Shown: positions 30,819-32,410 of the stretch, one piece after another
Numbering within the stretch: the first letter of the stretch is position 1
Layout: every line of letters starts with the position of its first letter
Origin: a virus
Strand: one strand, 5' to 3'
IMG/VR virus record: IMGVR_UViG_3300047476_001353
Location: 1-32,410 of that record
Length of the DNA stretch: 32,410 nucleotides
The notes under the pieces: generated by a model
The model's database searches: none
What the model saw: only the letters and a program-made list of their open reading frames with translations
What the model was told of the DNA's origin: nothing
Program-made: the position numbers and the translations under genes

Positions 30819-31559
30819 ATGGCTCTACCTACAGATAAAGCTTCATTCAAAGAGTATTGTCTCCGCACACTCGGTAAGCCTGTTATTGAGATCAATGTAG
30901 ATGATGATCAGGTTGACGATCGTGTGGATGAAGCTCTGAGTTACTACTGGGACTATCACTTTGATGGTACAGAAAAGATCTTCTATCGCTATCAGGTAAC
31001 ATCACAGACAAAGATTGACAGATACGTTCCAGTTCCTGAGAATGTAATCGGTGTTGTCAACTTGTTCCCAATTGGACAAGGCTTGAATACCAACAACCTA
31101 TTCAACATTCGTTATCAGATTGCATTGAATGACTTGTACACACTGACGTCGGTGTCAATGGTACCTTATTATATGGCACTGACACATGTTCAGTTCCTGG
31201 AGCAGATGCTAGTAGGCCAACAGCCGTTGCGATATAACAGACATGTCAATAGACTTTACATTGATATGGACTGGAGCATAATCAACGTCGGTGACTACAT
31301 TGTAGCCGAAGCCTATCAAGTAGTTGATCCTACTGTATATGCCGATGTGTGGAAAGATAGATGGTTATTGCGCTACTCTACTTGCTTGATCAAGCAACAG
31401 TGGGGTAACAACCTAAAGAAGTTTGGCGGTATGCAGATGCCAGGCGGCATCACATTCAACGGCCAGCAAATCTATGATGAAGCTACCGCAGAACGCAAAG
31501 AGCTTGAACAAGAAATGATCTCTTCTTACTCACTTCCAGTTACTGATATGATAGGCTAG
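30819..31559 (+). CDS. 13: gp13 neck protein
   Basis: The 246-residue protein (T4 gp13: 309) opens SFKEYCLRTLGKPVIEINVD (about 9-28), then QVDDRVDEALSYYWDYHFDG (about 31-50) and a PVPENVIGVVNLFPI strand. The helix-rich middle has MALTHVQFLEQMLVG (about 117-131), then IDMDWSIINVGDYIVAEAY, DRWLLRYSTCLIKQQWGNNL, and a terminal helix. The EY, GKPVI-x-I, DDR-x-DEAL arrangement is that of gp13 in T4-like phages. Gp13 with gp14 closes the head after DNA packaging and joins the tail. It begins a new transcription unit with the AATAAATA element upstream. Confidence 0.85.
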   Translation: MALPTDKASFKEYCLRTLGKPVIEINVDDDQVDDRVDEALSYYWDYHFDGTEKIFYRYQVTSQTKIDRYVPVPENVIGVVNLFPIGQGLNTNNLFNIRYQIALNDLYTLTSVSMVPYYMALTHVQFLEQMLVGQQPLRYNRHVNRLYIDMDWSIINVGDYIVAEAYQVVDPTVYADVWKDRWLLRYSTCLIKQQWGNNLKKFGGMQMPGGITFNGQQIYDEATAERKELEQEMISSYSLPVTDMIG

Positions 31560-31566
31560 TAGATAC

Positions 31567-32142
31567 ATGCTTTCATTCTCAAGATTCATTACCGAAGCAG
31601 CCTCTGTTGTCGAAAAGAAGATTCCTTTTGATAAGAAGGCGGATCCAGGTTGGCACCAAGATGGCGATCATATGATTGTTTATCACGGCACCCATGAACG
31701 TAATATTCCTAATATGATGAAGGATGGTCTAAACCGACCAGATCCAAAGACTGGAATGATCTCTGTTACTCACGACCCCAATACTGCACATGCATATGCT
31801 GCAATGTCAGGTCATGGTGGTGAAGCAGGATTCAGACAAGCAGGCCAAAAAGTAACCACTACACCACACAACGAAAGAGCTGTGGTCAAGATGAAGATTC
31901 CTATGTCGTGGGCAAAGGAACATATGGACCACAATATGAGTGGCAATATCGGTGCGGATGATAAGTCCAATGATCTAAAAGATGCCCGTGTCAGAATGAC
32001 CGACAAGAGAGAACATGAGAGATGGCGTAAAGCCAATCCTGGAAAGCCAGGGCATGTCTACTACAGTGGAACCGAAATTCGTTTCAAGAAATCAGTCCCA
32101 CCAGAGTTCATGGTCGGTCATATGAAGAAGTATGATAACTAA
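31567..32142 (+). CDS. ADP-ribosyltransferase-like protein with capsid-targeting-like tag
   Basis: The 191-residue protein starts MLSFSRFITEA, the pattern of T4 capsid-targeting sequences (MKTYQEFIAEA in T4 internal proteins), with an I-x-E|A prohead-protease-like site after E10. The rest has ART-fold landmarks: IVYHGTHERNI (37-47, with H40), KDGL (52-55), MISVTHDPNTAHAYAAM (64-80), and SGTEIRFKKSVPPEFM (167-182, with E170). These resemble the beta1 YHGT strand, the central strand and the catalytic-Glu region of H-Y-E-type ARTs. The expected role is ADP-ribosylation of a host or phage target after injection, like T4 Alt. The ribosome binding site is weak. Activity and cleavage are inferred. 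Confidence 0.65.
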   Translation: MLSFSRFITEAASVVEKKIPFDKKADPGWHQDGDHMIVYHGTHERNIPNMMKDGLNRPDPKTGMISVTHDPNTAHAYAAMSGHGGEAGFRQAGQKVTTTPHNERAVVKMKIPMSWAKEHMDHNMSGNIGADDKSNDLKDARVRMTDKREHERWRKANPGKPGHVYYSGTEIRFKKSVPPEFMVGHMKKYDN

Positions 32143-32410
32143 ATGGCAACAATATCAGAAGCATTTGTCTACTGCTGGGTGGATAGAGCAACAAACAAGC
32201 TATACGTAGGATCACATAAGGGATCTACGGATGACGGTTATATTTGTTCCAGCAAGCATATGTTAAAAGAATACAAGGAAAGACCTACAGATTTTTCTAG
32301 ACAGATAGTGGCTGAAGGTCTGCACTCTGATATGAGAAAGTTTGAAGGTGCTATTCTCAAGTCAGTCAACGCTAAAAATGACGAGCAGTTCTATAATAAG
32401 CATAATAATG
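32143..32410 (+). CDS. GIY-YIG endonuclease-like protein, C-terminus cut by window edge
   Basis: The first 89 codons are visible from the ATG at 32143, immediately after the ART-like stop. VYCW (9-12) and LYVGSHKG (20-27) fit the GIY and YIG elements, followed by DDGYICSSK, RPTDFSRQIVAEG and the FEGAIL segment that would hold the catalytic Glu, ending FYNKHNN. Related small proteins in T4-like phages (Seg-type) are homing endonucleases that cut intronless relatives and spread with neighbouring DNA. A freestanding position between neck genes fits that. The right edge prevents checking for a DNA-binding C-terminal domain. Confidence 0.75.
   Translation, partial: MATISEAFVYCWVDRATNKLYVGSHKGSTDDGYICSSKHMLKEYKERPTDFSRQIVAEGLHSDMRKFEGAILKSVNAKNDEQFYNKHNN

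Follow-up and report, generated by a model that had tools for sequence, protein, structure and literature searches.

The stretch of DNA analysed here, referred to as the window, is the 32,410-nt IMG/VR virus record IMGVR_UViG_3300047476_001353 (positions 1 to 32,410, one strand). Close to its right end, a gene for a small protein of the ADP-ribosyltransferase (ART) superfamily, which begins with a predicted capsid-targeting sequence (CTS; the tag), lies between the gene for the neck protein gp13 and that for a homing endonuclease, as follows:

31567..32142, + strand: the whole tagged ART gene, stop codon included (ATG start, 191 aa)
31567..31596, + strand: predicted CTS MLSFSRFITE, residues 1-10, with a predicted cut after E10
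31597..32139, + strand: mature ART domain, residues 11-191 (H40 at 31684-31686, Y77 at 31795-31797, E170 at 32074-32076)
30819..31559, + strand: gp13 neck protein, at the left edge of the cargo slot (PHROG 211, head-tail adaptor Ad2, E 3.9e-41)
32143..32409, + strand, running off the window: GIY-YIG homing endonuclease, co-occupant of the slot (PHROG 314, homing endonuclease, 2e-7; Pfam SegE, 0.0016)

The gp13 stop codon is separated by 7 nt from the ATG of the tagged ART gene, which in turn abuts the endonuclease gene with zero gap; in L004 the endonuclease is 211 aa long and is followed by gp14 (L-numbers denote the related contigs and stretches used for comparison, mostly from IMG/VR). The ORF starting with MLSFSRFITE/A (the slash marks the cut), its YHGT (residues 39-42) and TEI (169-171) segments, the numbering of H40 and E170 and the position beside gp13 are all as described by the first-pass annotation, whereas the mature N-terminus it gave, ASVVEKK, has to be corrected: a cut after E10 yields AASVVEKK, the start of a predicted mature protein of 181 aa, 20.4 kDa and pI 9.4. 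The gene recurs in IMG/VR at identities of 100% (L004, L013), 97% (L005, L006), 79% (L176-178) and 75-76% (L007), and it is under purifying selection (dN/dS 0.05 vs. L005). The T4-type late-promoter motif TATAAATA was found once in the window vs. 3.5 expected, so that evidence of this kind for late transcription is lacking.

The tag closely follows that of the T4 internal proteins. In T4, the first ten residues of the CTS are enough for packaging, with residues 4 and 7 governing targeting and 8 and 10 cleavage, as determined by mutation (PMC9026906), and T-even phages are known to have CTS-tagged internal proteins whose cargo varies (PMC12373910, PMC3012670). Both ipIII (MKTYQEFIAEASVVKAKG) and ipII (MKTYQEFIAEARVG) were taken from NC_000866, where ipIII starts with MKTYQEFIAE/ASVVKAKG. 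F4, F7, I8 and E10 of the window tag coincide with residues 4, 7, 8 and 10 of T4 IPIII, so that MLSFSRFITE matches MKTYQEFIAE at the targeting positions as well as at the processing positions with their glutamate. The proposal that the N-terminus fits the T4 capsid-targeting/prohead-protease pattern is therefore borne out by the match at these four residues, by the terminal [LI]xE/ and by modularity, as the tag is an N-terminal element borne by many unrelated cargos. In the AlphaFold model it forms a low-confidence helix (residues 4-15).

This recurrence exceeds chance. Among 1555 distinct ORFs of at least 100 aa on related contigs, 20 carry the strict tag M..[FY]..[FY][ILV].E, vs. 0.58 expected when residues 2-12 are shuffled; the window protein was itself one of the search queries, and at least 12 of the 20 ORFs are non-homologous to it. 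A scan of IMG/VR with a narrow degenerate DNA pattern for the tag returned at least 120 stretches, and a full scan with a control pattern of the same codons in reversed order returned 4. Positions 4, 5, 7 and 10 are imposed by the DNA pattern and are thus not independent evidence; the start position and the residue after E10 are not imposed by it. Of the matches read, 77 of 85 fall no more than 20 codons from the start of their own open frame, and in 23 of 41 cargo clusters E10 is followed by A, G or S. Of 80 stretches, 22 have recognisable head or tail genes of T4-like type, and the remainder are too short or too distant for a judgement. The head regions of DLP6, Cr30 and phiM12 hold no convincing tagged ORF (one match lies inside a longer phiM12 ORF), hence these nearest cultured relatives offer no direct proteomic check.

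The same position is used for other tagged genes. Across 113 loci with gp13, the gp13-gp14 gap is empty in most and otherwise holds a homing endonuclease and/or a tagged protein. With that of L182 counted, 16 distinct non-endonuclease ORFs occupy the slot, 15 of them with the tag or a recognisable variant (10 strict) and only that of L156 without, and they span at least seven unrelated families:

window, with a remote relative in L150: window ART family
L026, L075, L095: second ART family, family B (Pfam ART-PolyVal, 1.4e-6)
L021, L035, L105: possible GNAT-like family, family C
L154: GNAT
L130: ParB-like nuclease
L145: GP88 protein
L099: helix-turn-helix protein

Slot position and tag are constant, and the cargo is exchanged. 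Family C (L021, L035, L105, L162) has no significant match in PHROG, nor L021 in Pfam, and its model (pLDDT 80.5) bears a weak likeness to GNAT acetyltransferases (best E 0.01). At 1339-2031 of L026, just before an intact gp13, a second copy of the gp13 5' end is fused to an apparent HNH endonuclease.

Across IMG/VR, about 40 unrelated cargos carry the tag at the ORF start, the tagged ORFs among the matches read from the pattern scan forming 41 clusters. One of them, L265:3342-3833, encodes an Acb1 anti-CBASS domain (Pfam, 5.9e-38) that begins at residue 15, directly after the tag, an arrangement that suggests a head-delivered anti-CBASS protein. Further tagged ARTs (with E-values of 5.7e-12 and 9.6e-7 among them) comprise two ART-PolyVal proteins, of which that of L268 scores 47 bits, above the cut-off of 31.2, and one ADPrib_exo_Tox domain (Pfam). 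Other tagged cargos identified by Pfam are a zeta-toxin-like kinase, an S-adenosylmethionine lyase domain and a 5'-nucleotidase, along with several unknowns. Tagged genes are close-set in L183:5082-6923, L186:5594-6546, L189:5968-12469 and L268:7600-8580, the group in L189 including a gene for a poly(A)-polymerase-like protein, and in L268 the tagged ART neighbours another tagged gene.

A protease suited to the predicted cut is encoded by the same phage. L013 is identical to the window across 3161 nt (100%), from which we take it to be the same phage, and it encodes a gp21-type prohead protease (the L024 orthologue falls in the S77 family, E 3.9e-36) that starts with MKLITELTEEIEYITE/AKEDG, i.e. 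with the same ITE/A (YITE/A). Most gp21 sequences of the relatives of L013 keep [IL]xE near both ends, and gp23 of the relatives has a strongly conserved QTLTE/T-type site near residue 55. Considering these ITE/A and QTLTE/T sites, the predicted cut in the window protein fits those expected of the phage's own protease. On four contigs the gp21 match begins at the very end of a strongly basic tagged protein of about 95 aa, with a net charge of +23 to +26:

L206:12941-13237
L214:1858-2142
L246:1284-1565
L273:435-719

Lying just before gp21, these proteins occupy the position of prohead core genes.

What follows the tag had been described as ART-like, and this agrees with the profile and fold searches and with an H-Y-E triad that does not vary. 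H40, Y77 and E170 are present in all 16 aligned sequences, down to 33% identity, and are assigned to the putative active site from sequence. A profile of the 16 homologues matched KptA/Tpt1 (7.6e-4), then PARP15 and other ARTs. The AlphaFold model of the window protein (pLDDT 84.7, pTM 0.81) was compared with the PDB by Foldseek, and the 50 top matches listed are all ART-superfamily chains, among them KptA/Tpt1, DarT and PARP14 (best E 1.7e-4, probability 1.00). In the window protein G stands two positions ahead of E170, and none of the 16 sequences has E or Q there, so that the [E/Q]xE motif of R-S-E ARTs is absent and the protein is not of the R-S-E type of T4 Alt, which does not appear among its sequence and fold matches. 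The earlier description of a compact Alt is consequently retained for the predicted mode of delivery and given up for the lineage, because catalytic residues of the H-Y-E type do not point to descent from Alt.

Most of the divergent homologues keep the tag. At or near the N-terminus of the domain, the tag, a variant or an [IL]xE site is present in 13 of the 16 aligned sequences (e.g. MLRFSQFITE/A in L176, MKRFTQYIKE/D in L182, MISFIEYLSE/A in L186 and MKTLKEYLHE/S in L189), and homologues 35-79% identical retain the tag despite sequence variation within it. A scan of genome contigs gave a single relative, on a phage-like contig of a Verrucomicrobia metagenome-assembled genome (L194, MLRLKDFITE/K). 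In L179 (5392-7845), an 818-aa ORF embeds the ART domain, which is preceded by IME/A and followed by VNE/A; the adjoining module resembles the tagged protein whose gene comes after gp23 in L024 and L032. The cargo-like modules of this ORF stand between [ILV]xE motifs, in the manner of a polyprotein that the prohead protease would cut. In the collection of sequenced phages, the homologues of the window family come from Vibrio phages and lack the tag.

Virion data come from another compact tagged ART. ORF173 of LIMEstone1, a 153-aa protein of the second ART family with MKTFLQYLQE/SEHPVFGNLLLYHGS and YHGS, is listed in the virion ESI-MS/MS table with one unique peptide and 11.84% coverage, as is ORF174, which starts with MPTSKLFE/S (PMC3296691). 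For the window protein ORF173 counts as an analogue, being too remote a homologue for proof. Packaging of phage ARTs has been argued from MuF fusions and gene neighbourhood (PMC9503650), and P1 DarB has an N-terminal packaging signal (PMC9024508). In the open-access papers we found neither the tag in cyanophages nor, as weak evidence of absence, an account of compact ARTs with such a tag, of a cargo slot between gp13 and gp14 or of the spread of the tag among environmental phages.

Judged from the sequence, we consider tag-directed packaging of an ART-superfamily protein highly probable, and for the window protein we infer packaging, cleavage, injection, catalysis and target along the following lines. 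The gene product would be cargo in a T4-like phage, and its residues 1-10 would form a targeting helix binding the prohead core. The gp21 protease would cut after FITE and free a basic 20 kDa ADP-ribosyltransferase, which would stay in the head with the DNA and be ejected into the next host. There, the H-Y-E site would use NAD+ on a host target, be it a protein, a nucleic acid or a small signalling molecule, and this modification in the first moments of infection would most likely disarm defence or redirect host machinery.

Several observations weigh against this model. In Vibrio phage Kuja the homologue is untagged and has early or metabolic genes as neighbours; tag and domain can thus be separated, and head packaging is not required for the domain to function. 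As for ORF173, it is a member of the second ART family and is represented by one peptide only. TM-scores of the leading Foldseek matches are only 0.31-0.38, hence the fold agreement concerns the core and not the whole chain, and the window protein scores 13.5 bits against Pfam ART-PolyVal (PF18760), vs. a gathering cut-off of 31.2 (family B, at 29.6 bits, is near it). Finally, for some tagged cargos, e.g. the poly(A) polymerase-like protein of L189, a role as an injected effector is not evident.

The untagged Vibrio phage homologues are also what one would expect if the protein were a phage ART acting inside the infected cell after late expression, with the N-terminal helix serving as an anchor or partner-binding segment instead of a packaging signal; such a helix alone could bind other partners. 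T4 ModA and ModB, too, come into play at a later stage of infection (PMC9503650). This explanation appears unlikely to us, given that the tag is swapped among unrelated cargos and ends in a protease motif, that a tagged ART occurs in LIMEstone1 virions, that tagged basic proteins abut gp21 and that the window gene sits at a late head-gene position. Slightly more weight, though still little, may be given to a protein that is packaged by its tag without being an active ADP-ribosyltransferase: its domain would be an RNA 2'-phosphotransferase of the KptA/Tpt1 type, or else an ART fold devoid of activity that binds a host factor, as T4 IPI binds GmrSD. KptA/Tpt1 are indeed the best PDB matches by both sequence and fold, and T4 IP1-IP3, all three of which inhibit GmrSD nucleases, are inhibitors and not known enzymes (PMC12373910). 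However, membership in KptA/Tpt1 is not indicated, with 18.8 bits vs. a cut-off of 231 and Pfam PTS_2-RNA not reached, and invariance of H40, Y77 and E170 in 16 divergent sequences would be unexpected for a catalytically dead fold. That the tag resemblance is fortuitous and the gene an ordinary accessory one carried along with the adjacent homing endonuclease is hardly credible: such elements do carry neighbours and one does share the slot, but the counts (20 vs. 0.58 shuffled, at least 120 vs. 4 scrambled) contradict chance, and L026, L075, L095, L150 and L182 have tagged slot genes without an endonuclease.

Delivery of a tagged ART from the head is thus the reading we favour, and the pattern of tag and cargo is more interesting than the window gene alone. 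We lean, with less assurance, towards the view that one portable N-terminal code, M-x-[ST]-F-x-x-F-[ILV]-x-E/, loads many unrelated host-takeover and anti-defence enzymes into the heads of environmental T4-like phages, the gp13-gp14 gap being a cassette slot in which cargo is exchanged and the tag kept; reading the tag would then list the injected proteome of uncultured phages, including a head-delivered Acb1 and several ART families. Injected phage proteins are normally known only via proteomics of cultured virions, and with a tag readable from DNA one could predict which proteins uncultured T4-like phages inject. With an anti-CBASS protein and two or more ART families already in the tagged set, its other members are good candidates for new roles in counter-defence. 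The window protein, being compact, lends itself to examining packaging, cleavage and catalysis with one simple mutant each.

Apart from the tagged genes, the ORF at 2-799 of the window (- strand) has proline-rich repeats (APEVQARPPVAPEVPRVP) toward its C-terminal end, and an Rfam search of the window gave zero matches. In L005 (9767-11183) and L176 (1199-5101), gp17, the large terminase, is apparently split by intein halves (CITGDTKVTIQ... / ...IVNHNC), with a GIY-YIG endonuclease ORF between the halves in L176, a layout resembling the fractured-gene split-intein arrangement; the gp17 copy of L004 is uninterrupted.

Among known systems, KptA/Tpt1 RNA 2'-phosphotransferases provide the nearest solved structures by profile and fold, whereas the window protein is far under the family cut-offs and its invariant E170 is of the H-Y-E transferase type; KptA uses Arg/His residues instead of the H-Y-E glutamate. 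The closest homologues in sequenced phages, those of Vibrio phages Kuja (QGZ16011.1) and 144E46.1 (QZI89742.1), are about 42-45% identical over the ART domain, and the predicted fold of the former superposes on the window protein with a TMt of 0.93; they differ in having no CTS on the ART, and are hypothetical proteins from early/metabolic regions of Ackermannviridae. T4 Alt shares with the window protein the ART superfamily and, as predicted for the latter, head packaging with gp21 processing, but the window protein is much smaller, has a single short N-terminal tag and combines H-Y-E residues with the lack of an ExE/QxE motif. LIMEstone1 ORF173 and its Ackermannviridae relatives (phrog_4700) show the same compact tag-plus-ART build, in ORF173 as a virion protein by mass spectrometry, although it is of the ART-PolyVal-like family B and its gene lies beside a threonine lyase gene, not gp13. 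With T4 IPI, IPII and IPIII the window protein has in common a 10-residue N-terminal tag that is aromatic at position 4 and has F7 and, at 8-10, [LI]xE/, a basic cargo and a variable accessory gene of which the tag is the conserved part; it is distinguished from them by carrying an ART-superfamily domain instead of an inhibitor fold, by residing in the gp13-gp14 gap instead of the T4 ip loci, and by homologues that reach distant environmental phages.
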